Shown: piece after piece, positions 29,968 to 64,000 of the stretch
Layout of the letters: each line of letters starts with the position of its first letter
Position numbering within the stretch: the first letter of the stretch is position 1
Assembly: GCA_004292755.1 (NCBI GenBank)
Contig: RDXE01000031.1
Coordinates: 1-64,000, forward strand
Length of the DNA: 64,000 nt
Origin: Alphaproteobacteria bacterium
GTDB taxonomy: Bacteria; Pseudomonadota; Alphaproteobacteria; Elsterales; Elsteraceae
Direction of reading: 5' to 3'
Made by a program: the position numbers and the translations under genes
The notes under the pieces: model-generated
Databases searched by the model: none
What the model was told of the DNA's origin: nothing
The model's input: the letters and a program-made list of their open reading frames with translations, nothing else

Positions 29968-30573
29968 AGCAAATCGCTGTCAGGTCCGATCATCTGACTT
30001 GTGACGATGCTCTTAAACCAAGGAGTTTGGGTGGTTTGGCGGAGCGTATGCAATGTCAAACCACCCTAGTGGATCAAACCAACTGGTTCGAACGGTTCGT
30101 TTTGATCGAAAAGACATTGTGCTTGCGGGCTGATTGACGCAACGCATAGTCGCGGGGAGCGCAACGCACCAACCCGCGTCTACCCGACATGAGGGAAACT
30201 CGCCCCTGTGCGCCAGAAGCACGAAAGGCGCGCTTGCGACCGTCGGACGAAAACTTGTCCATCGCTTTGCTCAGGGTGGCTCCATCTTCTCAGCAGTGCG
30301 AGCCTTCGCCTGACTTGGGACCGTTGCTCCTGCGATGCCGACCGGGAGGGGGGTGTCCAACCCATGGGTTCACTCTGGGGCCCCTTAGTTGGTGCTTTGG
30401 TGTATTCTGCTGCTTTTTGCGTAATCCTCTAAATATTAGAACCTTTAACGCGTTTTTCTGCTCTTGCTATATCTCTTTTTTGTATCTATCTGTCAGCGAC
30501 GGGGCTACCAGTGCTACCCTACGCTCTTAAAAAGCTTTTTCCTTCTAACTCTCCCTTTCCAGAGGATACTACC
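29968..30573. other. Intergenic stretch with no credible gene
   Basis: About 600 bp between the tct block and the AT-rich patch. Short ORFs on both strands show no recognisable family. It holds a 36-bp imperfect palindrome (30072-30107) with outer arms GATCAAA/TTTTGATC and a perfect GTTCGAAC centre. Composition shifts from GC-rich to AT-rich around 30400, which looks like an insertion boundary. I see no transposase. Confidence 0.5.
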
Positions 30574-30795
30574 ATGTGTCGCATTTTTGGATATTTGTTG
30601 GACCAAGGGGGCGGTTACCCGCCCCGTATCGCTGCAGTTCCAAGGATGCAGATACATGGTAGACCAGACTCTCAGCGCTTCGTGGCCTCCCATGGTTACT
30701 GAATAGGTGCAAACCGACTCTCTATCGTCGATCCAAAAGGGGAAGATCAACGGACGCCGGCGCATGAAACAATTGAGCCCTATCGCAGCGCTTGA
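30574..30795 (+). pseudogene. Nonsense-mutated N-terminal fragment of a glutamine-hydrolysing asparagine synthetase
   Basis: ATG 30574, behind an AGAGGA ribosome site, reads MCRIFGYLLDQGGG, matching the class II glutamine amidotransferase N-terminus MCGIFGYL with the catalytic Cys2; it continues with MQIHGRPDSQ (normally HRGPDS, here transposed). After HGY comes an in-frame TGA (30700-30702), then the same frame goes on with IGANRLSIVDPKG, the next conserved block, before a second stop at 30793. The rest of the gene is missing. So this is a decayed remnant: G3R, HRGP to HGRP, one internal stop, truncation. A 35-codon ORF (30764-30871) overlaps in another frame and is not recognised. Confidence 0.75.
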
Positions 30796-30918
30796 TCGAT
30801 TGAAAATCTTCTTCTTTCACGAAGACTATTGGTCAATTCGTAAATTGGAGGCGACTATGCGATGTATATAAGACATCTCAGAAATGGCGCCCGCCTTCCA
30901 TTATGACTGGAGATCATT

Positions 30919-31851
30919 ATGTTAAAGAGATCCTTGATCGGACCTGTTTTTGTACTCTTAGCCGCAATACTATGGGGCTTCTCTGCATTTACGAAGAAGT
31001 GGTTACTCGCATATATTGATCCACTTACCCTCATGGTATTGAATTCAATTGCTACCGCTCTGACGCTAGTCTTTGTCTGGACCCGACCAGTTGCTGCGCT
31101 GAGTTCCTTCAAACGGTTCGCATGGTTTTTTCTTGGACTCGCATTCTTTGGAACCACGATTGGCACGACCCTCCTCTACGCTGCGATTGACAATCTTGAT
31201 CTCGCAGTTGCAAGTATAGTTGGTAAGATACAGCCGGTGTTTGTGATAATACTGGCTGCGATGTTCCTACGAGAAAGGATTTTTCTGTCAGATTGCCTGT
31301 TGTCGCTAGCTGCAATCATCGGTGCAATACTAGTGACAATAAGATCACCTGCTGATCTGCTAACAATCTCTCATGTTACTGTGATTGGTTTATCCGCTGC
31401 CGTTGGCAGTTCAATTGGCTGGTCAATCAGTGGCGTAATTGGCCGACATCTCTCCAGCCACGAGCAGTCTCCCACTCCGTCTGAAATCACGTTTTTTCGC
31501 TACCTCTTGGGCGCCATAATCGTTACGCCGCTTGTCGACTTCCCCGCGTTACAGAACGTCGACCAACGGTGGGAATATGATTGGCCCTTCGGCGCAGCAG
31601 TCGTTGTATTGGCATTTCTTACTACAACACTCCCAGCATGGTTCTACTATAAGGGGCTGAAGACCGTATCCGCCGGATACGCGTCTGTGATTGAGCTATT
31701 TTCGCCCCTCACCGCGATTCTCCTTGGCGTTGTATTCCTTGGAGAGAGACTCAGCATCTGGCAGTGGACGGGCGGCCTCATCGTCCTGGCCTCCATCACC
31801 GTCATGGAAGTCATGAGAACGAGACGGAAGCGTGTCAATCTGTCAACCTGA
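30919..31851 (+). CDS. DMT-superfamily (EamA) transporter
   Basis: Integral membrane protein of 310 residues with about ten hydrophobic helices in two EamA repeats (about 5-140 and 155-300). Family features are LLAAILWGFSAFTKKWLL at the N-terminus and, near the C-terminus, GYASVIELFSPLTAILLGVV with FLGERLSIWQWTGGLIVL, the typical (L/F)xGE motif of the last helices. Probably an exporter of amino acids or metabolites; the substrate cannot be told. Codon use is AT-rich against neighbours on both sides, so it is likely acquired together with the asparagine-synthetase remnant. Confidence 0.88.
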   Translation: MLKRSLIGPVFVLLAAILWGFSAFTKKWLLAYIDPLTLMVLNSIATALTLVFVWTRPVAALSSFKRFAWFFLGLAFFGTTIGTTLLYAAIDNLDLAVASIVGKIQPVFVIILAAMFLRERIFLSDCLLSLAAIIGAILVTIRSPADLLTISHVTVIGLSAAVGSSIGWSISGVIGRHLSSHEQSPTPSEITFFRYLLGAIIVTPLVDFPALQNVDQRWEYDWPFGAAVVVLAFLTTTLPAWFYYKGLKTVSAGYASVIELFSPLTAILLGVVFLGERLSIWQWTGGLIVLASITVMEVMRTRRKRVNLST

Positions 31852-48391: not shown

Positions 48392-50724
<2,333 letters not shown>

Positions 50725-50759
50725 ATCGGGCTCCGATCCTCAAGCGTCGCGGGCCGCGA

Positions 50760-52289
50760 TCAGGCGAAGGTGCGGACGAACTGGTCGAGGAAGCCCTTCA
50801 GCTTCTCTTCCGTCGGCGCCTTGATCTCCCGATCCTCACGGATCGCCGCCAGGATGTCCGGCGCCTTGGACTTCAGATCGGCGCGGAACTGAGCTTCCCA
50901 GCGGACCACGTCACCCGTCGCCACCTTGTCGAGATAGCCACGGACACCGGCGAAGATCGCAGCAACCTGCTCTTCCACCGGCAGCGGCTGGAACTGACCC
51001 TGCTTCAGCAGCTCAGTCAGACGCGCACCGCGGGCCAGCAAGCGCTGGGTTGCCGGGTCAAGGTCAGACGCGAACTGCGCGAAGGCCGCCATCTCGCGGT
51101 ACTGCGCCAGTTCCATCTTGATGCGACCGGCCACCTGCTTCATCGCCTTGATCTGAGCGGCCGAACCGACGCGGCTGACCGACAGACCGACGTTGATCGC
51201 CGGGCGAATGCCCTTATAGAACAACTCGGTTTCCAGGAAGATCTGGCCGTCGGTGATCGAGATCACGTTGGTCGGGATGTAGGCCGACACGTCACCCGCC
51301 TGGGTTTCGATCACCGGCAGTGCCGTCAGCGAGCCAGCACCCATGGAGTCGTTCATCTTCGCCGCGCGCTCCAGCAAGCGCGAGTGGAGATAGAACACGT
51401 CGCCCGGATAGGCTTCGCGGCCCGGCGGACGGCGCAGCAGCAGCGACATCTGACGATACGCAACTGCCTGCTTCGACAGATCATCATAGATGATCAGGGC
51501 GTGCATGCCGTTGTCGCGGAAGAATTCACCCATGGCGCAGCCCGTGTAGGGCGCCAGGAACTGCAGCGGAGCCGGGTCGGATGCAGTGGCGGCAACGACG
51601 ATGGAATAGTCCATCGCGCCGAAGTCCTGCAGCGTCTTCACGATCTGCGCGACGGTGGAGCGCTTTTGCCCAATCGCCACATAGATGCAGTAGAGCTTCT
51701 TCGACTCATCGCCCAGCGCGTTGACCGACTTCTGGTTCAAGATGGTGTCGATGGCAACGGCCGTCTTGCCAGTTTGACGGTCGCCGATGATCAACTCGCG
51801 CTGACCGCGACCGATCGGCACCAAGCTATCGATCGCCTTCAGGCCGGTCTGCATCGGCTCATGCACCGACTTGCGCGGGATGATGCCGGGGGCCTTCACT
51901 TCAACGCGCTGGCGGGTCACATCGGTCAACGGCCCGCGGCCATCAATCGGGTTGCCCAGACCATCGACGACGCGGCCCAGCAGGCCACGGCCAACCGGCA
52001 CGTCCACGATGGTGCCGGTCCGCTTCACGGTGTCGCCTTCGCGGATCGACTTGTCGTCGCCGAAGATCACGACGCCGACATTGTCGGTTTCCAGGTTCAG
52101 GGCCATCCCCCGGATCCCGTTCGGAAACTCCACCATCTCGCCAGCCTGGACCTGGTCCAGACCATAGACGCGGGCAATGCCGTCGCCGACCGACAGCACC
52201 TGGCCGACTTCGGCCACTTCCGCGCCAGCCCCGAAGCTCGCGATTTGGTTCTTCAGGATTGCCGAAATTTCGGCGGCACGGATGTCCAT
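50760..52289 (-). CDS. atpA: F1 ATP synthase alpha subunit
   Basis: 509 residues, full length. P-loop GDRQTGKT at 169-176, the signature [17 protein letters not shown], and the N-terminal [16 protein letters not shown] typical of Alphaproteobacteria. The start forms a TGATG junction with the atpH stop, so the two are coupled. Confidence 0.98.
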
Positions 52290-52849
52290 CAGGCCACTCC
52301 CTTCATGGCGAGCTGCAGACGCATCAGCTTGGTTTTGAGACTATGGTCGACCAACTTGGAACCGACCTTGACGACAAGACCCCCGATGAGGGTCGGATCA
52401 ACCGATTGGTTGATCGTGATCCGAGGTGCAACGCTGGCACGCAGACGCTGGCTGAGCTGTTCCACCTGTTCCCACGACAGCGGCTGAGCGGAGGTCACCT
52501 CCACCGTCACTTCACCGCGCTTGTCGGCTAGGCGCGCCAAAAAGGCGTTCGCCACCGGCACCAGCGCCGCAAGACGACGGTTCTGCGCCAGCACACCGAC
52601 CAGATTGCGGGTCAGCGGCGTGACACCCAGATGGTCGACAACCGCCATCACCGCTGTGGCGACGACGTCGCGCTTCAGCACGGGAATGGTGAGCAGGCGC
52701 TGGAATTCCGGCACTGAGGCCACGCTGGCGCTCAGTAGCCTTAAATCCTGCGCCACCGCGTCCAGTGCGCCCTGGCTGTCCGCCAAGTCGTACAAGGCCA
52801 CGGCGTAGCGTTCGGCAAGCCCTTTCAGGCCGGTGGTCTGTGTCGCCAC
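52289..52849 (-). CDS. atpH: F1 ATP synthase delta subunit
   Basis: 186 residues from GTG 52849 ([20 protein letters not shown]), the family start; the frame open to 52999 has no homology. Further motifs: [24 protein letters not shown] and [19 protein letters not shown]. First gene of atpHAGDC. Fo genes (atpIBEF) are not here, as is normal in Rhodospirillales, where F1 and Fo operons are split. Confidence 0.95.
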
Positions 52850-52935
52850 GCGTGCGATCCACTGTTGTTGAGAACCACACTCCGGAGGAGCCCGAAGCGC
52901 GGCTGCCGGTGGGTTCCGGCAAGAATTGACGAGGC

Positions 52936-52955
52936 CGGGACGTGCGCCCGTCCCG
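52936..52955 (-). promoter_or_regulatory. Hairpin in the atpH leader
   Basis: Perfect 6-bp stem CGGGAC/GTCCCG with an 8-base loop, 87 bp before the atpH start. Further upstream on the same strand TATGCT may be a -10 element. Could be a leader structure of the atp operon or the tail structure of metW transcripts; not decidable here. Confidence 0.3.
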
Positions 52956-53081
52956 AAGCGGCGCGATGGGTAGCATAGGCACTTCGACCCGCGCAACACG
53001 CGCCATCATCGCCGCAACGTCGCAGGCCATGCCGCCGCAGCATCCCCCCACACTTTATGGGGCGATGCTGCACCCGACCAA

Positions 53082-53705
53082 TCAGCGCCGTAACAGAAAC
53101 ACTGCCTGTTGACCGAAGATGTTGGCCAGTCGCTGCGACCGGATGTCCCGTCGCCGCCCACCCGCATCGAACGCGACAGCCCGCTCCACCACCAACCCCT
53201 CCAACAGCGCCAAGTCCAGAAAGTCCTGGATCGTGCACAGGTGAATGTTGGGGGTATCGAACCAGCTTTGTGGCAGGGCGGTTGTCACTGGCATGCGCCC
53301 CGTTGCCAACAGGGACCACCGTACCCGCCAATAGCCAAAGTTTGGCAGGGAAACAATTGCGTGGCGCCCAATCCGCACCAACTCCCGCAAGACTGTCCGC
53401 GGCTCCCGCGTTGCTTGCAGGGTTTGAGACAGGATTGCGTAGTCGAAGCTTTGATCGGGGAAATCAGCCAAGTCAGTGTCCGCATCGCCCTGGATCACCG
53501 ACAGCCCGCGGGCGACCGACATATTCACGCCAGCCTGCGACAATTCCAACCCGCGCCCTTCGCACCCACGGCCATCGACCAGTGCCTCCAGCAGCAAGCC
53601 GTCGCCGCAGCCAACATCCAGCACCCGGGCGCTCGGCTCGACCAGATCAAGGATCAGGTCGAGGTCAACGCGCCCGGTGCGACCAGTCGTCACCGCCGCG
53701 GTCAT
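53082..53705 (-). CDS. metW: Methionine biosynthesis protein MetW
   Basis: 207 residues; SAM-binding fold with [20 protein letters not shown] (about 28-47), [20 protein letters not shown] and the MetW-specific [20 protein letters not shown] and [14 protein letters not shown]. Partner of MetX in homoserine acetylation/succinylation in many Proteobacteria. Its ATG overlaps the metX stop by 4 bases. Confidence 0.95.
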
Positions 53706-54907
53706 GATGCCCCCCGTGAACGGTCCCGCCCGTTCAGGAACCCGCGCAACACGGCTTCCAGTTCTGGTTCCTCCAGCAGGAAGGCATCGTGCCCGCGGTC
53801 GGTTGCGATCTCACAAAAGCTGACATCCGCCGCCACTGCAGTCAGTGCTCGCACCAATTGGCGGCTCTCCACTGTCGGGAACAGCCAGTCGGAGGTGAAG
53901 GAGACCACGCAGAACCGGGTACGCGTGCCCCGAAACGCCGCGGCCACGCTGCCATGCTCGGCGGCGAGGTCGAAGTAGTCCATCGCCCGCGTGATGTAGA
54001 GGTAGGCGTTGGCGTCGAACCGCTCGACAAAACTGCGGCCCTGATGGCGCAGATAGCTCTCCACCTGAAAATCCGCATCGAACCCGAAAGACAGATTCGC
54101 CCGATTCTGCAAGGTTCGACCGAACTTTCGCTGGAGCGCCGGTTCCGACAGATAGGTGATGTGGGCCGCCATCCGCGCCACCGCGAGGCCGCGCTCAGGA
54201 CGGGTGCCCGCCTCGAGATACGCGCCACCGCGCCAATCCGGGTCCGCCATGATCGCCTGGCGACCAACCTCGTGGAAGGCGATGTTCTGGGCGGAGTGCC
54301 GGGTGGCCGTGGCAATCGGCACCGCCGCGCGCACCCGGTGGGGGTAGGCGGCGGCCCACTGCAACACCTGCATGCCGCCCATTGAGCCGCCAACGACAGC
54401 GGCCAGCTGGTCAATCCCCAGCCAGTCCACCAACGCCGCCTGGGCGCGCACCATGTCGGCGATGGTGATCACCGGGAAGGTCAAACCATAGGGTCGCCCG
54501 GTTGCGGGGTCGAGGTCGCGCGGGCCGGTGCTGCCCATGCAGCCGCCAATCACATTGGCGCAGATGATAAAGTGCCGCTGCGGGTCAATCGGCTTGCACG
54601 GGCCGACCAACGTGCTCCACCAGCCGGTCTTGCCAGTGATCGGATGGGTGTCCAGCACATACTGGTCCCCCGTCAGCGCGTGGCAAATCAAGATGGCGTT
54701 GGACTTGTCGGCGGCCAGCACACCGTGGGTGGTGAAGGCGATCCGGACATCGCGCAGCACCTGCCCCGAATCCAGCGGCAGCTCTGGCAAGGTTAAGAAT
54801 CGCCCCGGCAGCGCCTGGGGATAAAACGGCAGCGCCAGTGGTCCATCGACCATGGCAGCGCGCTGTGGTCCAGCGACCACATTGGGTACATCGGTGCGTA
54901 TCGTCAT
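53702..54907 (-). CDS. metX: Homoserine O-acyltransferase MetX
   Basis: 401 residues, alpha/beta hydrolase fold; activates homoserine for methionine synthesis. Catalytic Ser175 in [14 protein letters not shown], Asp340 in [10 protein letters not shown] and His373 in [11 protein letters not shown]. Acyl donor (acetyl or succinyl) cannot be told from this. ATG 54907 (MTIRTDV) chosen over a GTG at 54925. The region before the start is structured (see leader). Operon with metW. Confidence 0.95.
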
Positions 54908-54920
54908 TGGACGGGCGGTT

Positions 54921-54996
54921 GCCACTCCCGAGCAGTGGCCCCTTTCGTGTGCGCCGTGATCGGTCGCTTGGCGGGGCTTGGAACCAATGACGACCG
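54921..54996 (-). promoter_or_regulatory. Structured metX 5' leader
   Basis: Two hairpins on the metX strand: an outer stem CGGTCG/CGACCG (54961-54996) with an inner TTGG/CCAA stem, then GCCACT/AGTGGC around a 7-base loop (54921-54939), which starts 14 bases before the ATG. It could be a regulatory leader for methionine control. I do not see the SAM-II consensus in it. Confidence 0.35.
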
Positions 54997-55029
54997 TGCG
55001 GCCCGCTTGTCACTAAGTCAATTGTTCGT

Positions 55030-55058
55030 TTGCACCGCCCTACCCCTCTGGCTATGCA
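55030..55058 (+). promoter_or_regulatory. Candidate promoter of the chorismate mutase gene
   Basis: TTGCAC and TATGCA with 17 bp between them, ending 25 bp before the start codon. Reasonable sigma70 spacing, but short for a leader; moderate support only. Confidence 0.35.
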
Positions 55059-55083
55059 GAGACATGTTTAGTTGGTTCACGCC

Positions 55084-55941
55084 ATGACCTCGTCTAACTC
55101 CCCCCCCTCCCTGGCAGACCTGCGCCGCGAGATTGATGGCATCGATGATGCCTTGCATGATCTGCTGATGCGCCGGGCCGCCCTTGTGGATGCCATCGCT
55201 GCCGCCAAACGAGGCGAGCCGAGCCTCGCCGGGCCGGGACTGCGCCCAGGGCGCGAAGCGGCCATCCTGCGCCGTCTGCTGGCCCGCCATCAGGGGCGGT
55301 TTCCACGCAAGGCGCTGGTTCGGATCTGGCGGGAACTGGTCAACGCGATGACCAACCTGCAGGGCCCCTACGCCGTCGCCGTTCACATTCCCGATGGCAA
55401 CCCCGACTTGTGGGACTTGGCGCGCGACCATTTCGGCACCGTGGTGGCGGTCCGCGAGTATGATTCGCCGGGCGCCATCATCCGTGCGGTGGTGGAGCAG
55501 CCGGGCACGGTCGGCGTGCTGCGCTTCCCTGCCGAGGGCGAGGCGGAGCCTTGGTGGCCTGCCCTGCTGGTGACGGATCCGAAGGCACCCCGGCTGGTCG
55601 CCCGCCTGCCCGTCGCGCGTCAGGGTGAGCCTGACGTCGACGCCGTGGTGATCGCACGCAGCCCGCTTGACCCCTCCGGCCACGATGTCAGCCTGTTCGC
55701 GCTGGAAACCAATGGCCCTGTCAGCCGGGCGAGCCTGCTAGAGCGGTTGGCCGCCGCGGGCTTTGGCGCTGCCATTCTGGCAACCCAACCAGGCACCACG
55801 CCCGATAGTGGGCGCTGCCACCTGATCCAGGTGGATGGCTTCCACGATGCCACGGCGATTGCGTCCTTGCGAGCAGCCGGTGGCGATGCAGTGGTTGCGG
55901 GCGTGTGGCTGGGCGGCTATGCCGTGCCGATCGTGTTCTGA
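55084..55941 (+). CDS. Chorismate mutase (type II) with C-terminal extension
   Basis: 285 residues from ATG 55084. The first 90 residues are an AroQ-type chorismate mutase: LADLRREIDGIDDALHDLLM with the catalytic Arg/Glu set, RRAALVDAIAAAK and the second helix ending in ALVRIWRELVNAM. The rest (about 95-285) resembles the regulatory or degenerate prephenate-dehydratase-like half seen in Rhodospirillales homologues, but lacks a clear PDT catalytic motif (TxR). It converts chorismate to prephenate; starts the CM-hisC-tyrC group. Confidence 0.85.
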   Translation: MTSSNSPPSLADLRREIDGIDDALHDLLMRRAALVDAIAAAKRGEPSLAGPGLRPGREAAILRRLLARHQGRFPRKALVRIWRELVNAMTNLQGPYAVAVHIPDGNPDLWDLARDHFGTVVAVREYDSPGAIIRAVVEQPGTVGVLRFPAEGEAEPWWPALLVTDPKAPRLVARLPVARQGEPDVDAVVIARSPLDPSGHDVSLFALETNGPVSRASLLERLAAAGFGAAILATQPGTTPDSGRCHLIQVDGFHDATAIASLRAAGGDAVVAGVWLGGYAVPIVF

Positions 55942-56004
55942 CACACCCGCGCGGTCGACCGTGGCACCCAGCCCTCGGCACCCAGCGGTGGAGGGTTCCT
56001 GGCT

Positions 56005-57126
56005 ATGACCTCGCCTGCTCCCAAGCCCGGCATTCTGGAGATCGCAGCCTATGTTGGCGGCAAGTCGAAAGCCGCCCCTGGCGTAACGCCGATCAAACTG
56101 TCCTCCAACGAAGGGGCATTGGGTCCAAGCCCGAAAGCGATGGCGGCCTTCACAGCTGCCGCACCCGACCTGCATCGCTACCCCGATGGCGGCGCAATCG
56201 CACTGAGGGCCGCGATTGCGCGGCGCTATGGGCTGGAGGCGGATCGGATTGTCTGCGGGGCCGGGTCCGACGAGTTGATCGCACTGTTGACCAAGGCCTA
56301 TGCCGGGCCGGGTGATGAGGTGCTGTACAGCCAGCACGGTTTCTTGATGTACCCGATTGCGGCGAAGAGCGTTGGGGCAACCCCGATTGCCGTACCGGAG
56401 CAGAACCTGACCGCGGACATTGATGGGTTGCTGGCGGCTGTGACGCCAAACACCCGCATCCTGTTCCTCGCCAATCCCAACAATCCAACTGGCACGCTGT
56501 TGCCAGCAGAGGCGGTGCGGCGGCTGCACGCGGGTCTGCCGGCGTCAGTGCTCCTCGTGCTGGATGCCGCCTATGCCGAGTATGTTGACCGCAACGACTA
56601 TGACCCCGGCATCGGGCTGGTGCAGGCGGCCGACAATGTCGTGATGCTGCGCACCTTCTCGAAAATCTACGCACTCGCCGCCCTGCGGCTCGGCTGGGCC
56701 TATTGTCCGCCTGCCATCGCCGATGTGCTGAACCGGCTGCGCGGCCCGTTCAACACGGGTCTAGCCGCCCAAGCCGCTGGTGTTGCCGCGATGGAGGATC
56801 AAGCCTTCGTCGATGCCGTCAAAGCCCACAACGACATTTGGCGTCCCTGGCTGGCGCAGGAATTGGCAGCAGCGGGGCTGAGCGTGGTGCCTTCGGTTGC
56901 GAACTTCCTGCTGGTGCGCTTTCCCGGGGGGGCCGCAGCCGCGGCTGCCTGCTATCGCTTTCTTGAGGCGCGCGGGCTGATCGTGCGGGAGATGGGCGGC
57001 TATGGCCTTGGCGATTGCCTGCGCATCACGGTCGGCACAGAGGCCGAGTGTCGGGCCGTGGCAGCTGGCATCACCGCGTTCTGCACGGAGCAATCCACCA
57101 CCGCCGCAGCGGGATCAGCCGCATGA
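56005..57126 (+). CDS. hisC: Histidinol-phosphate / aromatic aminotransferase HisC
   Basis: 373 residues, PLP fold type I. Seen: KLSSNEGALGPSPKAMAAF, YPDGGAIALRAAIA, FLANPNNPTGTLL (substrate Asn), LVLDAAYAEYVD and the Schiff-base Lys220 in TFSKIYALAALRLGW. Downstream of chorismate mutase and overlapping tyrC by 4 bases, it probably acts in Tyr/Phe synthesis as a broad HisC-type enzyme, as well as or instead of His synthesis. GGAGGG precedes the start. Confidence 0.92.
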   Translation: MTSPAPKPGILEIAAYVGGKSKAAPGVTPIKLSSNEGALGPSPKAMAAFTAAAPDLHRYPDGGAIALRAAIARRYGLEADRIVCGAGSDELIALLTKAYAGPGDEVLYSQHGFLMYPIAAKSVGATPIAVPEQNLTADIDGLLAAVTPNTRILFLANPNNPTGTLLPAEAVRRLHAGLPASVLLVLDAAYAEYVDRNDYDPGIGLVQAADNVVMLRTFSKIYALAALRLGWAYCPPAIADVLNRLRGPFNTGLAAQAAGVAAMEDQAFVDAVKAHNDIWRPWLAQELAAAGLSVVPSVANFLLVRFPGGAAAAAACYRFLEARGLIVREMGGYGLGDCLRITVGTEAECRAVAAGITAFCTEQSTTAAAGSAA

Positions 57127-58004
57127 GCCTGCCGGTTCAGCGCCTCGCAATCATTGGCATCGGGCTGATCGGCTCCTCCATCGCACGGGTTGCGCGAGAG
57201 AAGGGCTTGGCACGGGCCATCGTGTGTTCCGACGCCTCGGCCGAAGCGCGCGCCGATGCGCTGGCCCTGGGCATTGTCGACGCAGCCGAGGCGGACCCTG
57301 CTGTCGCAGTGGCTGGTGCCGATCTGGTGATCCTCTGCACCCCCATCGGTACCTATCGTGCCCTCGCCATGGCCATTGCCCCGGCTTTGGCGCCGGGGGC
57401 GATCCTGTCTGATGTCGGCTCGGTCAAGCAGGCGGCGATTGCGGCCGTGGCGCCCCACGTGCCACCAGGGGTTCACTTCATTCCTGGCCATCCCGTGGCG
57501 GGGACAGAGCATTCCGGCCCAAAATCCGGCTTTGCCAGCCTGTTCGATGGCCGCTGGTGCATCCTCACGCCGTTGGAGGGGACTGACCAAGCCGCCCTGG
57601 CCCGGCTGGAGGCGTTTTGGCAGGGGGCAGGCTCCAATCTCGCCACCATGACGCCGCTCCACCATGACCGGGTGCTGGCGATTACCTCCCACCTGCCGCA
57701 CTTGATCGCCTACACCATCGTCGGCACAGCCGCCGACCTGGAGGAGCATTTGCAGGCCGAGGTGATCCAATACTCAGCCGGTGGCTTCCGCGACTTTACC
57801 CGCATCGCTGGCTCTGACCCCGTGATGTGGCGTGACGTCTTCCTGACCAACCGCGAGGCTGTCCTGGAAATGCTGGGCCGCCTGCACGAAGACATCGCCC
57901 TGATGCAACGCGCGATCCGCATCGGCGACGGCAAAACCCTCGAAGACCTGTTCACCCGCACCCGCGCCATCCGCCGCGGCGTGCTGGCGGCGAAGCAGGC
58001 GTAG
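57123..58004 (+). CDS. tyrC: Prephenate/arogenate dehydrogenase TyrC (TyrA family)
   Basis: 293 residues. Rossmann start LAIIGIGLIGSSIARVA, DLVILCTPIGTY, DVGSVKQAAI, then FIPGHPVAGTEHSGP with the catalytic His and YSAGGFRDFTRIAGSDPVMW. NAD or NADP preference is not decided from the fingerprint. Overlaps hisC in an ATGA junction; the trio supplies Tyr and Phe precursors. Confidence 0.94.
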   Translation: MSLPVQRLAIIGIGLIGSSIARVAREKGLARAIVCSDASAEARADALALGIVDAAEADPAVAVAGADLVILCTPIGTYRALAMAIAPALAPGAILSDVGSVKQAAIAAVAPHVPPGVHFIPGHPVAGTEHSGPKSGFASLFDGRWCILTPLEGTDQAALARLEAFWQGAGSNLATMTPLHHDRVLAITSHLPHLIAYTIVGTAADLEEHLQAEVIQYSAGGFRDFTRIAGSDPVMWRDVFLTNREAVLEMLGRLHEDIALMQRAIRIGDGKTLEDLFTRTRAIRRGVLAAKQA

Positions 58005-58178
58005 GGGGGGTGTCGAGGACTAAAACTATCGTCTGGCGGTCAAGCTTGAGACAGCCAGCGGCATACTGGGCTGTTCATTGCGGGAAACTGGTAGTTCATA
58101 CTCTCTGCCAACCTCGTTAGCCTCGGGATTTGAGCGTTCTTCAGTTTGACTGGTGACCAGGCTGGATTCTGGTTTGCA

Positions 58179-58619
58179 TTAAACAAGATCGACATTTTCG
58201 ATCTGTACGTACCAAACCGCCAGTGACTGAACCTTCTTTGCAATCTTGGCGGTGCCCCAGACCTCGCCGTGATGGTCGTTCCCCGGCAGCGGGACAAATC
58301 CAACCCGACACCCAAGACCACGAAGCGCCCCAGCGGTGAAGCGAACCGAGCCCATGAATCTGGGCGTAGTGACAAATTCCTTTGGCTTCAAGCCAGCAGC
58401 GAGTATCGACGCCTCTAAGTCTACTGACATACCAGCATTCGCGCCGGAAGATGGTTTGAAGCACATGGATGAGATGCGGCGACCGCCGCGGCCATCATCA
58501 ACGATGTGATACTCTGATACCCGCCGAATCACCCCATCATCAGGCGATATGTCTGGATGATCATAGGGGCTGACAGTACCGTCAGCATTACGCTGCGGTG
58601 GCTTCAGCAGCACGGCCAT
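58179..58619 (-). CDS. Hypothetical protein, third gene of the TIGR04255 island
   Basis: 146 residues from ATG 58619, overlapping the upstream gene by 32 bases. Begins MAVLLKPPQRNADGTVSPYD then HPDISPDDGVIRRVSEYHIV; the centre has GRGGRRISSMCFKPSSG and the C-terminal part RFTAGALRGLGCRVGFVPL. I recognise no family. No signal peptide or membrane segment, so cytosolic. Its base composition is nearer to the rest of the island than to tyrC. Co-translation with the two genes before it suggests one function. Confidence 0.6.
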   Translation of the reverse strand: MAVLLKPPQRNADGTVSPYDHPDISPDDGVIRRVSEYHIVDDGRGGRRISSMCFKPSSGANAGMSVDLEASILAAGLKPKEFVTTPRFMGSVRFTAGALRGLGCRVGFVPLPGNDHHGEVWGTAKIAKKVQSLAVWYVQIENVDLV

Positions 58620-59061
58620 TCCCCATCAGTGATTCCAGCCAGCCGACGACCAAAGTAAAGTCATTGGTCAAAGCTACTTCCTTAACCTGCTGGTCATGGT
58701 CTAGATACCAAGCCTCAACACGATTCGGCGCGAGAACGTGCAACTCAATTGATCCGCTCTCTGTGTGCCATTCCGCTTGGAGATCGCCATTCACGCCGGG
58801 AACAAGCTGCGGCACTTCACATCCTGGGATCTTTAACTGCGTCAACATGCTCAATGTAAAGTAGGCCGTGGAAAACTGTACTGGACGCGCTGCATACCCG
58901 TCCCACCCAATTGGCAGGTGGACGAGATCGTCGAGCCGCCGGACAACCGTCTCTGACCAAGGGTCATGTTCTGCCACTAACACATGCGACCGCGAAGCGT
59001 CCAATGAAGTGACGTTGGTACGCCGCGGACTGAAGAAACCCTCGCTGAAGGCAGTGATCAT
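58588..59061 (-). CDS. Hypothetical protein with a LPIGWDGY motif, second gene of the TIGR04255 island
   Basis: 157 residues from ATG 59061, which overlaps the TIGR04255 gene stop by 4 bases. Its landmark is LVHLPIGWDGYAARPVQFST (about 51-70), with ALLQPE-like continuation CEVPQLVPGVNGDLQAEWHT and SIELHVLAPNRVEAWYLD. Such GWDGY proteins recur beside TIGR04255 genes in scattered genomes, from my general knowledge of such loci, but no activity is established. No signal peptide. Confidence 0.65.
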   Translation of the reverse strand: MITAFSEGFFSPRRTNVTSLDASRSHVLVAEHDPWSETVVRRLDDLVHLPIGWDGYAARPVQFSTAYFTLSMLTQLKIPGCEVPQLVPGVNGDLQAEWHTESGSIELHVLAPNRVEAWYLDHDQQVKEVALTNDFTLVVGWLESLMGNGRAAEATAA

Positions 59062-59960
59062 TGAGTTCGCTCCCAAACCGCGTGTGCCGCCTTAGAAGTT
59101 ATCTCGGCGAACATCTTGACGATCAAATCGCGCCCTATGCAAAGGAAATCAAGTGCATCGGCGATGGACGTAGACCGCGGCGCTCCTCTCGCGGATAGTT
59201 GAACGACCAAAAGTGGCGCACCAACGCTGTCCAGCTGGCTATTCACCTCGCAGATCAGGCGACCCGTTGGGCTATTATCGGAACCATGAATTAGTTTGGT
59301 GAAGGTTAGTGACATATTCTCAACGTTAAAATCGTCTAAACCCATAATTCGGAACCATTGGCTTGGATAAATTTGACTACCCTTCAGTGAAATCTGATTG
59401 GTATAAGTAATTTCACATTGATTTATCCGAAGATCTTGGGTATTGAGATTTTTCATGTATTCGTTCAATAAATAAAGCTCCGCCTCAAAGTCTTTGATTA
59501 AACTCTCAAATCTAGGGTATTCATTTTCTGTATTCAGACCTTTTCTCCAATTATGCAGGAGCCGGTCTGATTGAAACTGAATTAATTGGTCCTTCTCTCG
59601 AGATAGAAACAAAAATCGATTGTGCAAAGCACAACTAACGAACCCGAACTCAACTCGTGGCCCCCGCTGAGGCAGGCCGAAGGTTTCAAAGGCAGGTGGT
59701 ATCGGTTGCCGTTCCTCAACGATTGGAAATTGATCTTGATATAGCATCCATACCTCATAAGCTCGGATATGGTGATAGCGCTCGGGTGTTTCAAATTGCA
59801 CACCTATCCCAACCTCGTTCAAAGGGGGAGTACGGAAGTCCGGTAGGTCGGTAGGCCGTTGGATCACGTCGATTTCGCCCTTGCTGCCGAATCGGTATAC
59901 AAGGTTTGCGATTGGGCGGGAAGGTTCGGAAAAAATGCAGGCGCTGAAGTCAAGCGCCAC
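59058..59960 (-). CDS. TIGR04255 family protein
   Basis: Up to 300 residues. Recognised from DFRTPPLNEVGIGVQFETPE, then VWMLYQDQFPIVEERQPIPP and a C-terminal half with mixed beta/alpha pattern, the layout of the sporadically distributed TIGR04255 family. Start uncertain: GTG 59960 as given, or GTG 59867, which is nearer the usual family N-terminus; neither has a strong ribosome site. Clearly AT-richer than tyrC and argC around it. Heads a three-gene overlapping operon beside tRNA-Glu. Function unknown. Confidence 0.7.
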   Translation of the reverse strand: MALDFSACIFSEPSRPIANLVYRFGSKGEIDVIQRPTDLPDFRTPPLNEVGIGVQFETPERYHHIRAYEVWMLYQDQFPIVEERQPIPPAFETFGLPQRGPRVEFGFVSCALHNRFLFLSREKDQLIQFQSDRLLHNWRKGLNTENEYPRFESLIKDFEAELYLLNEYMKNLNTQDLRINQCEITYTNQISLKGSQIYPSQWFRIMGLDDFNVENMSLTFTKLIHGSDNSPTGRLICEVNSQLDSVGAPLLVVQLSARGAPRSTSIADALDFLCIGRDLIVKMFAEITSKAAHAVWERTQ

Positions 59961-60119
59961 ACCGGCGCCGTTGGTCGCGCTCGCCTCGCGATTTCAGCCT
60001 TGACGCGGTTCCGGAATGCCGGATCAGTCCGATTGGCGCACGGGCGTTCCCAAACACACTCGGCGACGCCCCAACCAGGACGCTAAAACTCTAACCGAAT
60101 CATGGGCTTAAAAAGCGGC

Positions 60120-60195
60120 TGGCGTCCCGTAGGGGAGTCGAACCCCTGTTACCGCCGTGAGAGGGCGGTGTCCTAGGCCACTAGACGAACGGGAC
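60120..60195 (-). tRNA. tRNA-Glu (anticodon CTC)
   Basis: 76-nt cloverleaf on the minus strand: acceptor GTCCCGT/ACGGGAC, anticodon arm CCGCC-CTCTCAC-GGCGG with CTC anticodon, T arm with GGTTCGACTCC, discriminator G and encoded CCA at 60120-60122. Its 3' end faces the TIGR04255 island, the side at which islands integrate. Confidence 0.93.
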
Positions 60196-60309
60196 AAAGC
60201 CAGTGATGCCTGGCCGTAAGACATACGACCGGTGGCCCCGGTGGTGCAAGAGGTTCGTGCGCCGCGCCGGGGTGAAAGTCCACCGGCAGCTCAGCGTCTC
60301 GGCTGCCCG

Positions 60310-61776
60310 TTACTCCGCCCAGGTGCGGCTGGTGCGGGTGGCGGGGTCGTAGCGCAGGATGCGGTGGTGGTTGGTGTCCACCACCAGCACGGCGCCCTCG
60401 GCATCCAGCGCGATGCCAGCGGGTTCGTTGAGGGGGCGGCAGACGGCGTCGGTGCAGGTGTAGCCGTCGTCAAGGTCGCTGATCTGCTGGCGGGCCAAAT
60501 CGATCACCCGCACCGTGTCGTTGTAGCTGTCGGCAACGAACACCAGCGGCCCATCGACGGCCAGACCGAGGGGGTGCTGCAACCTTCCATCATCCAGGGA
60601 GCCGTTGACGTGCCCAAAATCGAACAGCCCAGTGCCAATGATGGTTGCCACCTCTGGCTTGTCGCGGAACACCAACGCGCGGATGGAGGAGGTTTCGCTG
60701 TCGGCGAAGAACACCACTGGACGGTCTGCCAACGCCGCCAACCCGCTCGGCTGGGCCAGGGCAGCTTCAGGCGCGAAGCCATCGGATATCGCTTCCCGAC
60801 CTGAGCCTGCCAGCCGCGTCACCGAGCCGTCGCTGGGGTCAAACAGCCCCAACTGGTGGGTGCCCGCGTTGCAAAACAACACCGCTCCGGAGAACACCTC
60901 AACATCCCAGGGGGAGGCCAGCGCCTGCTCCAACCCCAAGGTGGGTTGAGCCAGCGCAGGCCCGCGTTGACCTGTGCCTGCGACGGTGATCACCAAGCCG
61001 CTGGCGCGATCAATCCGGCGCAGCAGGTGGTTGCCGGTGTCAGCAACCCAAATCGCGTCCTCATCCGCAGCAACGCCCTCAGGGCGGTGGAAACTCGCGT
61101 GCAGCGCCTCGCCATCCTCGGCCCCCGGAAGACCGGAGCCATAGCGCACAAGCTCGTCGCCCTGGCTGGACAGCACGACGATTTGATGGTTGCCCGCATC
61201 GGCCAGCACAAAGCCGCCCTCGGGCAGTGCTTTCAGCTTGGCTGGAAAGTGGAAGCGACCAGGCTCAGGCGCAGCCGGGGCGACCAGCGCACCGCCGGGG
61301 GCAAGGCGCCCACCGGCCCGATGCTGGGCCACCATGCCTGCAATCAACTCCTCCAGCGCGTCGGGGTCGGGCTCGCCCGAGGTCGCGCCCACCACATAGC
61401 CATCGGGATCAATCACAGCGAGGGTCGGCCAAGCCCGTACGCCAAATTCCTGCCATAGCCGCATGTCTGGGTCGTGAACCACTGGATGGCCGATGCCATA
61501 GCGCTGGATCGCGGCGGCAACCTTGGTTGGATCCTTCTCCGCCTGGAACTTGGGCGAGTGGACGCCAATCACCGCCACCTCCTCCGGGAAGCGGCGTTCC
61601 AGCCGCGCCAGAGTGGGCAGCACCTGCAGGCAGTTGATGCAGCAGAAGGTCCAGAAATCGAGGATCACCAAGCGCCCGGCCAGCCGGTCTTTGGTCCAGG
61701 GAGCATCAGTGTTCAGCCAGATCAGGCCGTCGCGGGCAAGCTCTGGAGCGCGAACCCGCGGCAGCTCTTTGGTCAT
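60310..61776 (-). CDS. Thioredoxin-like/NHL-repeat protein (NHLRC2-like)
   Basis: 488 residues. The N-terminal TlpA-like thioredoxin domain (about 12-150) has the redox motif WTFCCINCLQVLP (Cys45, 46 and 49) and cis-Pro RAWPTLAVID. It is followed by an NHL beta-propeller (about 175-480) with repeats such as FHRPEGVAADEDAIWVADTG, NHLLRRID and LVFVADSYNDTVRVID. No clear signal peptide. The start is ATG 61776; the frame extends to 61800. It sits 7 bases behind argC, likely co-transcribed. Animal NHLRC2 has the same architecture; its bacterial role is not settled. Confidence 0.9.
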   Translation of the reverse strand: MTKELPRVRAPELARDGLIWLNTDAPWTKDRLAGRLVILDFWTFCCINCLQVLPTLARLERRFPEEVAVIGVHSPKFQAEKDPTKVAAAIQRYGIGHPVVHDPDMRLWQEFGVRAWPTLAVIDPDGYVVGATSGEPDPDALEELIAGMVAQHRAGGRLAPGGALVAPAAPEPGRFHFPAKLKALPEGGFVLADAGNHQIVVLSSQGDELVRYGSGLPGAEDGEALHASFHRPEGVAADEDAIWVADTGNHLLRRIDRASGLVITVAGTGQRGPALAQPTLGLEQALASPWDVEVFSGAVLFCNAGTHQLGLFDPSDGSVTRLAGSGREAISDGFAPEAALAQPSGLAALADRPVVFFADSETSSIRALVFRDKPEVATIIGTGLFDFGHVNGSLDDGRLQHPLGLAVDGPLVFVADSYNDTVRVIDLARQQISDLDDGYTCTDAVCRPLNEPAGIALDAEGAVLVVDTNHHRILRYDPATRTSRTWAE

Positions 61777-61783
61777 TGATCCC

Positions 61784-62713
61784 TCACGCAGCGCAATCAA
61801 GCATCAGGCGAATGTTTTGGACTGCAGCGCCGGAGGCACCTTTGCCCAAATTGTCCAACCGCGCGATCAGCACGGCCTGACGATGCGCCTCATTGTGGGC
61901 AACGCGCAGTTCCAGCCAATCGGGATCGGCCAGCGGCTCCGCCCGCACCCGGCCTGGAGGCGTGTCCAATGGCAACACCGTCACAAGGTCCGAGGCTGCA
62001 TAATGCTCCACCAACGCTGCATGCAGGTCAGCCGCAGTCACCGATGGGCCCAGCACGTCCAGGTGCAGGGGAATCTGCACCACCATGCCCTGCGGGATAT
62101 TGACCACTGCTGGCACGAAGATCGGGCGCCGGGTCAAGCCAGCATAACGCTGCAGCTCTGGCACATGCTTGTGGGTGAGGTCTAGACCATAGGCCTCGTA
62201 AGCCGCTGCCCCGCCATCGGCATTGGCCGCCTCATAGGCCTGGATCATGCTTTTGCCGCCGCCGCTATAACCGGAGACGGCATTCACCGTGATCGGCGCA
62301 TCGGGCGGCAGCAGGCCTGCATCCACCAGCGGGCGCAGCAAGGCGATGGCGCCAGTGGGATAGCAGCCAGGATTGGCAACCCGACGTGCCGTGCGAATGG
62401 CGCCTGCTTGGTCAGTTGTCAACTCCGCAAAGCCATACACCCACCCCGGTGCGACCCGATGGGCGGAGGAGGCATCGAGGATCTTCGGTCCATTGTCCCC
62501 GGCGAGAACGACGGACTCCTTTGCCGCCTCGTCCGGCAGGCACAGCACCACCAAATCCACCGACTGCATCAAATCGCGGCGTGCGGCGGGGTCCTTGCGG
62601 TGCTCTGGCGCGATCGATCGGATGTCGATGTCCGGAAAGGCGGACAGGCGCTCAACTATGCCGAGCCCGGTGGTTCCGGCTTCGCCATCGATGAACACAG
62701 TCGGCTTGGACAT
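61784..62713 (-). CDS. argC: N-acetyl-gamma-glutamyl-phosphate reductase (class 2) ArgC
   Basis: 309 residues. NADP-binding start [17 protein letters not shown], catalytic Cys in [12 protein letters not shown] (about 117), then [14 protein letters not shown] and [14 protein letters not shown]. Short class-2 ArgC as in many Alphaproteobacteria. Third step of arginine synthesis. Upstream 230 bp separate it from the divergent MoeA-like gene. Confidence 0.95.
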
Positions 62714-62940
62714 GACACACCTCATTCAGCTTGGGCCGCGACAGTATCGGGAGCGGGCGCGTTGCACAAGAGACCGCACCAGCCCAAAGACAGGCCAGCC
62801 GAGCCAACGTCGCGGTCAGATGCAACCGCCTGCTCACCAAGCGTTTTGTGGATCACGGCAGACAATTCGACCGAGCTAACGGGATCCACTAAGATCGTGG
62901 CGTTTACCTTATCCCTGTCGACACACCACAGGAGGCCAGT

Positions 62941-64000
62941 CTGAGCGAGGGGTTTGCAACACTCCATCCCGTGGCGGACGCACTCGCCGCACTGCTAAAC
63001 GGGCTTCAGCCCGTGCCACCGGAGCCGGTACCTCTGGCCGAGGCACTGGGACTGCGGGTGGCCGACGCAGTCGCCTCCCCTCCCCTGCCAGCCACCGCCG
63101 TGGCTCTGGCGCCAGGCTATGCCGTCAGCGCGGCTGATCTCGTTGGTGCTGATGCTTACAGCCCAGCGTTCGTTCCGATGCCACCTGCCATTGCCATCGA
63201 CCAGCCGCTGCCAAGCGGCACCGATGCTGTGCTGGCCGCCGATGCTGTCCAGTCAATCGGCGGGCAGGCAGAGATTGTTGCCAGCCTCGCCCCCGGCACA
63301 CGGGTGCGTCAGCCCGGCGAGGATTGGCCGGGCGACACCGCGCTGATCCCCGCCGAGCACCGCATCGGCCCTGCCGATCTGCTCGCCTGCCAGCGGGCGG
63401 GCCTCACCCATCTGCCGATCCGCCGCCCGCGGGTGGTGGTGGAGCAGCCTGAGGCGTCCCCGGCGACGGCCCTCTGGCTCACCAGTCTGGCGGTCACCTG
63501 GGGGTGCCGCACCAGCGGCCCTGCCGACTTGATCCTCCGCCTCACCCGGGGGCCCAACGATGGCACGGCAGCAGCAAGCCACCACGGCCTTGCCCTCGCA
63601 CCGGGCGAGTCCGCGGGTGTCGGGCGGCACAACGGCACCCCTGTGGTTTTGGTACCCGCCCGCTTTGATGGGGCTGTCGCTGCCGTGGTCGCCCTGGTGC
63701 TGCCAGTGCTGGCCCAGTTGCTGGCGATGCCGCTGCGGCAGGAGCGCCATCCCGTGGCGGCCAAGATCGCCTCCGCTCCTGGCGTCTGCGAGGTGGTCTT
63801 GCTGCAACGCACCCGTGGCCGCTGGCAGCCGCTGATGACCGGCGATGTGACCCTCGCCGCCTTGATGCGCAGCGATGCCGTGGCCCTGATCCCACCGGAC
63901 AGTGAAGGATTGGCCGAGGGCAGCGTGCTCGCTGGCCTGTCGCTCAGCCAGCCGTTCGCACCCATGCGCGGCGACCGGATGCCCGCAGACGCGGGGGGCT
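62941..64000 (+). CDS. Divergent MoeA-like molybdopterin-biosynthesis protein (3' partial)
   Basis: Open frame to the right edge, more than 350 residues. N-terminal part resembles MoeA: VADALAALLNGLQPV, LAEALGLRVADAVASPPLP, LAPGYAVSAADLVG (equivalent of DNSAMDGYAV), LPSGTDAVLAADAV and LVPARFDGAVAAV (where MoeA has LPGNP). The SGGVSxGDxD molybdopterin/catalytic motif is not recognisable (SGPADLILRLTRGP), so it may not be an active MoeA. The start is odd: AGGAGG is followed 5 bases later by CTG 62941; the first usual codon in frame is GTG 62971. Confidence 0.65.
   Translation, partial: MSEGFATLHPVADALAALLNGLQPVPPEPVPLAEALGLRVADAVASPPLPATAVALAPGYAVSAADLVGADAYSPAFVPMPPAIAIDQPLPSGTDAVLAADAVQSIGGQAEIVASLAPGTRVRQPGEDWPGDTALIPAEHRIGPADLLACQRAGLTHLPIRRPRVVVEQPEASPATALWLTSLAVTWGCRTSGPADLILRLTRGPNDGTAAASHHGLALAPGESAGVGRHNGTPVVLVPARFDGAVAAVVALVLPVLAQLLAMPLRQERHPVAAKIASAPGVCEVVLLQRTRGRWQPLMTGDVTLAALMRSDAVALIPPDSEGLAEGSVLAGLSLSQPFAPMRGDRMPADAGG

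Follow-up and report, generated by a model that had tools for sequence, protein, structure and literature searches.

The stretch of DNA analyzed here (64,000 nucleotides, hereafter the window) contains three small overlapping genes, A, B, and C, between a tyrC-like gene and tRNA-Glu(CTC), and raises the question of whether they belong to the core gene content of this lineage or form a mobile accessory unit and, if the latter, what such a unit would do for its host. The preliminary description had proposed a mobile accessory or defense module. We hold it to be nearly certain that A-B-C is a mobile accessory trio. We further consider it probable that the three genes form one mobile, co-transcribed cassette encoding a putative uncharacterized anti-phage or anti-mobile-element system, genomic context being the ground for the defensive role.

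Gene Content and Context of the Window Locus

The trio lies between tyrC and tRNA-Glu(CTC), with all three genes on the minus strand. The features of the locus are as follows:

57117 to 58004, plus strand: tyrC-like flanking core gene, convergent, present in 8/9 family genomes
58179 to 58619, minus strand: gene C, 146 aa, with no known family, kept as the third gene across the close clade
58588 to 59061, minus strand: gene B, 157 aa, with a GWDGY domain (ORF 58588 to 59076; ATG at 59061)
59058 to 59867, minus strand: gene A of the TIGR04255 family, 269 aa when read from a probable GTG start at 59867; the mechanically called ORF reaches 59960
59940 to 59958, minus strand: GC-rich hairpin and T-run (pattern scan), probable tRNA-Glu terminator, upstream of the likely A start
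60120 to 60195, minus strand: tRNA-Glu(CTC) (ARAGORN), 3' end toward the cassette
60310 to 61776, minus strand: flanking gene, thioredoxin/NHL-like (by reading the sequence), with a same-genus homologue 62% identical

Genes B and A overlap by 4 bases (ATGA, the ATG of B at 59061 lying on the stop codon of A), and genes C and B overlap by 32 bases. The trio has a GC content of 0.507 (0.46 in A, 0.55 in B, and 0.56 in C), whereas the window averages 0.640 (sd 0.037), and only approximately 1% of same-size stretches across the window reach a value as low. The ORFs, the ARAGORN prediction, and the GC content thus confirm the earlier account of three overlapping, AT-rich minus-strand genes at the 3' side of tRNA-Glu(CTC). 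The assignment of A to TIGR04255 is likewise upheld, with a match of 55.4 bits to the NCBIfam model (curated cut-off 30) over positions 2–234 of 252.

Gene A most likely spans 59058–59867 and begins ~250 bp past the tRNA: its relatives start with '(M)xRPxxLPDF', which corresponds to the window GTG at 59867, and the hairpin with its T-run (59958–59940) would fall inside the longer ORF that starts at 59960. The function of the hairpin is putative, the pattern scan having found 4 terminator-like sites vs. 2.7 expected in shuffles. Artefactual ORFs are ruled out, since A, B, and C are all conserved at the protein level. Comparison of the two Bradyrhizobium copies indicates purifying selection on both A and B (dN/dS about 0.09 for A and about 0.13 for B, near synonymous saturation; dS is saturated for C). 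Elsewhere in the window, a second low-GC patch (30000–31850; GC about 0.50) includes a gene for a 310-aa DMT/EamA-type permease, recognized by eye (30919–31851, plus strand), and is possibly another acquired gene.

Distribution of the Trio

The NCBIfam name of the family, 'sporadTIGR04255', is matched by its distribution, as the preliminary description had stated: TIGR04255 was detected in 19/385 genomes of the class, 30/398 of the phylum, and 0/14 control genomes. Within the window's family, A or B was found in none of the eight other genomes searched (0/8; several are incomplete, 75–99%). The region downstream of tyrC has a different content in each relative examined, and synteny with the same-genus genome breaks at 58006 (the tyrC end) and restarts at 60311, the two flanks lying on separate contigs in that genome. 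Occupation of the same place by the trio in all relatives is therefore not seen.

Within the class sample, four genomes encode a close relative of B, in each case beside A, and there is one weak match in addition. Close relatives of C also occur in four genomes; three of these represent the trio, and the fourth is weak, separate, and near a contig start. At L136:139–560, a weak relative of C (39 bits) occurs by itself, with neither A nor B, immediately past the end of a gene that looks winged-helix/LexA-like by eye. Searching about 85,000 genomes for A yielded ten close relatives, among which L062 and L068 correspond to the G077 and G233 copies from the class search. The alphaproteobacterial carriers are Hoeflea, two Bradyrhizobium, Rhizobiales, and two further MAGs; the others are Herbaspirillum robiniae and Rugamonas (Betaproteobacteria), Chromatiaceae (Gammaproteobacteria), and one MAG labelled 'bacterium'. 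A collection of viral contigs contained a single A relative, on phage contig L072, and no relative was found in annotated phage records.

The order and strand of A-B-C are the same in all ten close relatives and in L072, with B overlapping or abutting A. The trio was also identified on a large plasmid of Mycobacterium paragordonae (L139:6983–8722), where A is followed by B (hhalign E 3e-11) and then C (E 1e-6), and where it sits between a mobF relaxase and conjugation/transfer genes. Co-occurrence elsewhere, which had been in question, is thereby established for three proteobacterial classes, a phage, and an actinobacterial plasmid. In a tree of 57 A proteins, copies from Alpha-, Beta-, and Gammaproteobacteria fall into one group with that of the window, and this mixed-class grouping implies transfer between classes.

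Insertion Sites and Mobility

The trio keeps its gene order and overlaps, has passed from class to class, and is inserted at tRNA genes, in a phage tail module, and on plasmids. The tRNA link noted at the window locus holds across loci: 6/57 TIGR04255 loci have a tRNA on the same strand within 300 bp upstream, vs. about 0.1 expected if tRNA genes are assumed to occur once in about 80 kb (one was present in the approximately 164 kb of control stretches). The tRNAs concerned are Glu (window), Met (G077), Thr (Rugamonas), Arg (L014, L058), and Ala (L042). Within the short flanks of the tRNA-adjoining close-clade copies, no integrase, att repeat, or duplicated tRNA 3' end was found. For the window copy, no integrase was found among the inserted genes, and an att-site duplication of tRNA-Glu is rejected: the last 27 bases have no second copy in the whole window, and the 3' end has no second copy in 50001–64000. 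An integrase together with a duplicated tRNA 3' end, as expected of an integrase-borne tRNA island, is therefore absent from the window copy and present at the TIGR04255 operon of genome G661.

In G661, a 6.3-kb element at tRNA-Arg(CCT) (L128:3988–10321) carries a TIGR04255 operon that includes B and C relatives, along with a tyrosine integrase and an acyltransferase; the element is bounded by tRNA-Arg and by a 56-bp copy of the tRNA 3' end (94.6%). The site is empty in the sister species G778, in which the sequence is continuous where G661 has the element. Extra copies of the tRNA-Arg 3' end also occur in other genomes of the G661 genus, so that the tRNA-Arg(CCT) site looks like an integration hotspot in this genus.

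On phage contig L072, the trio is flanked by a minor-tail/NlpC gene on one side and the gene for the central tail fibre on the other, and its third-position GC is near 0.44 vs. 0.86 for the phage genes. In most hosts, the trio has a GC content of 0.47–0.52 vs. 0.58–0.63 for its flanks; the two Bradyrhizobium copies are higher. Even if its role is not defensive, the trio is an unusually compact unit that moves among tRNA sites, plasmids, and phage tail modules with no visible integrase.

Modularity of the Wider TIGR04255 Family

The TIGR04255 model describes A alone; the trio arrangement, the exchangeable third gene, and the tRNA, phage, and plasmid contexts were found in this analysis, and a search of a library of open full-text papers found none naming TIGR04255. 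Of 57 non-redundant TIGR04255 loci, 34 have a relative of B immediately 3' of A (iterative search; the weakest members are less sure), and XRE-HTH proteins or short proteins take its place elsewhere. Outside the close clade, TIGR04255 genes are paired with third genes of two or more unrelated kinds. The kinds encountered are the short C relative, a 190–280 aa 'S-x-T-C-D' protein, and an NlpC-like protein (by eye), the type labels having been assigned partly by eye; hhalign shows no relationship between the two main families, short C and TCD. The types of third gene are clustered along the A tree, yet with at least two changes. At one locus (L055:547–921, minus strand), the third gene behind the TIGR04255 gene encodes a 125-aa protein that is HEPN-like by eye, with no support from Pfam.

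Defense Context

The most telling evidence on function comes from a tRNA-Met site in genus g75, at which the trio is exchanged with an EcoRII-type restriction-modification system at one identical position. G077 and G437 share both flanks of the site, at 84–86% nucleotide identity. G077 has a 2.0 kb insert with the trio, and G437 has 3.3 kb (L125:4390–7376) encoding a C5-methyltransferase (E 5e-77), Vsr (E 1e-31), and EcoRII (N and C domains at E 3e-52 and 4e-62, respectively), which constitutes a complete type II restriction-modification system. G748 has neither the trio nor the EcoRII system within the stretch read at the tRNA-Met site.

Small hotspots of high turnover, whether in phages or at anchors, have been recognized as reservoirs of defense genes (PMC9122126). 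Like the trio, small hotspots at tRNAs and in prophages, such as those of P2/P4 phages, hold cassettes of 1–5 kb between conserved anchor genes, with high turnover and exchange with restriction-modification genes (PMC9122126); unlike the trio, which is found at many unrelated sites and mostly with no recognizable carrier, they are fixed to specific phages or satellites.

For the neighboring genes, PADLOC (E ≤ 1e-10) was applied to 110 proteins encoded no more than 5 kb from 19 TIGR04255 loci, after manual removal of the cassette genes. The matches comprised two AbiEii, one AbiEi, one retron-like reverse transcriptase, one viperin, one HsdS, and PDC-S13. The 135 proteins of 16 control stretches gave matches to methyltransferases, dGTPase, one Fic, and one cyclase-type protein, and several of these matches may be housekeeping genes. 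The comparison is suggestive of defense-gene neighbors being commoner at TIGR04255 loci than in controls, in a small sample that was judged by eye and with PADLOC families that include housekeeping-like ones. A viperin-like radical SAM gene (L150:9877–10851) and a retron-like reverse transcriptase gene (L158:8937–9857) each lie within 3 kb of a TIGR04255 operon. Among plasmid-borne TIGR04255 copies, that of Crinalium is near HsdM/HsdS, that of Thermus is near Argonaute, VapC, and cas6, and one from Vibrio is followed by a zeta-toxin gene. The close-clade cassettes are mostly situated among ordinary genes, outside defense islands, and no defense gene was seen adjoining the window copy.

At the protein level, the GWDGY domain of B matches the C-terminal third of the PADLOC candidate PDC-M32A (375 aa; positions 257–361, E about 1e-6). 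Membership of PDC-M32 is rejected, as B covers about 90 of the 375 positions and A and C match no PDC-M32 model. No characterized defense protein resembling A, B, or C was found. Of the preliminary proposal, the mobile accessory half is thus well supported; for the defense half, the case is one of context, namely the EcoRII swap, the moron position in the phage, the neighbors, and the PADLOC-candidate domain.

Proposed Function and Alternatives

If the cassette is defensive, the products of A, B, and C would act together. A, as the constant partner, would be the sensor or core of the system; B may serve as adaptor or regulator; and C would be the exchangeable effector, set free or switched on by infection to halt the infected cell or the phage. 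This division of labor is a guess, and a rather doubtful one. The chances are evenly balanced for the broader proposal that TIGR04255 is the shared sensor core of an undescribed modular immune class that ranges from Proteobacteria to Actinobacteria and Cyanobacteria and swaps its adaptor (GWDGY or helix-turn-helix) and effector. Under this broader proposal, the effectors would comprise short C, the 'S-x-T-C-D' proteins, the NlpC-like proteins (by eye), and others, and the window trio would be a complete minimal example of 1.7 kb. A defensive role would give a 'sporadically distributed' family a function and two fixed partners.

The principal alternative is a mobile, toxin-antitoxin-like addiction cassette that stabilizes itself or its element and has no specific anti-phage role. 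The small overlapping genes, the carriage on plasmids and phage, the XRE-type helix-turn-helix (an antitoxin trait) of some B genes in the wider family, and the zeta-toxin gene of the Vibrio plasmid would all suit such a cassette, but the cassette comprises three genes instead of two, neither A, B, nor C has a recognized toxin fold, and the chromosomal copies fixed between genes, as well as the EcoRII site swap, suit defense at least equally. We regard addiction as unlikely overall; many toxin-antitoxin systems are themselves defensive, so that the two readings overlap.

Still less probable is a moron that serves host fitness or regulation (envelope change, transcription control, superinfection exclusion, or fertility control) and travels on phages, plasmids, and small islands. 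The position of the trio in the phage tail module of L072, the cargo acyltransferase adjoining the TIGR04255 operon of G661, and the location of the Mycobacterium copy between mobF and transfer genes are consistent with a moron; the recurrent defense neighbors, the EcoRII swap, and the conservation of A with an exchangeable third gene argue against it. A chance association or a core gene cluster of this lineage would have in its favor nothing except the adjacency to tyrC and tRNA-Glu. It is ruled out for practical purposes by the absence of A and B from 8/8 other family genomes searched, and the gene order is shared with distant taxa. An anti-phage or anti-mobile-element system is the reading that we prefer.

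Predicted Structures and Remote Similarity

The AF2 models of A (pLDDT 83, pTM 0.83; a predicted alpha/beta protein) and C (pLDDT 94, pTM 0.88) had no significant Foldseek match in the PDB or the viral library, and profiles of A, B, and C against solved structures likewise returned nothing significant. Since A and C have no significant match to any solved fold, a cassette of 1.7 kb encoding three small proteins may, if it is defensive, reveal new sensing or killing chemistry. For A, SRPBCC/START folds recurred among the weak matches, at a TM below 0.25, which is too low for use.

For C, the best Foldseek E-values were 0.75 (PDB) and 0.047 (viral library, an unnamed protein), with TM ≤ 0.41. 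KptA/Tpt1 (tRNA 2'-phosphotransferase) and HopF2/AvrPphF recurred as weak matches in two libraries with the highest TM-scores (0.33–0.41), though with non-significant E-values and TM below 0.5. Residues R28, D63, R96, and H113 of C (alignment numbering) are invariant. These models offer a weak lead that C might have a divergent, NAD-using ADP-ribosyltransferase-like fold. The lead failed in the sequence test, in which hhalign of C against five KptA sequences gave a probability of 0.8%, and the identification of C as KptA or an ADP-ribosyltransferase is not supported. The weak Pfam matches of B and C (DUF5797, DUF5665) are below the cut-offs and are taken as chance. In the wider family, one C protein gave a single match to AbiEii (E 1e-4).
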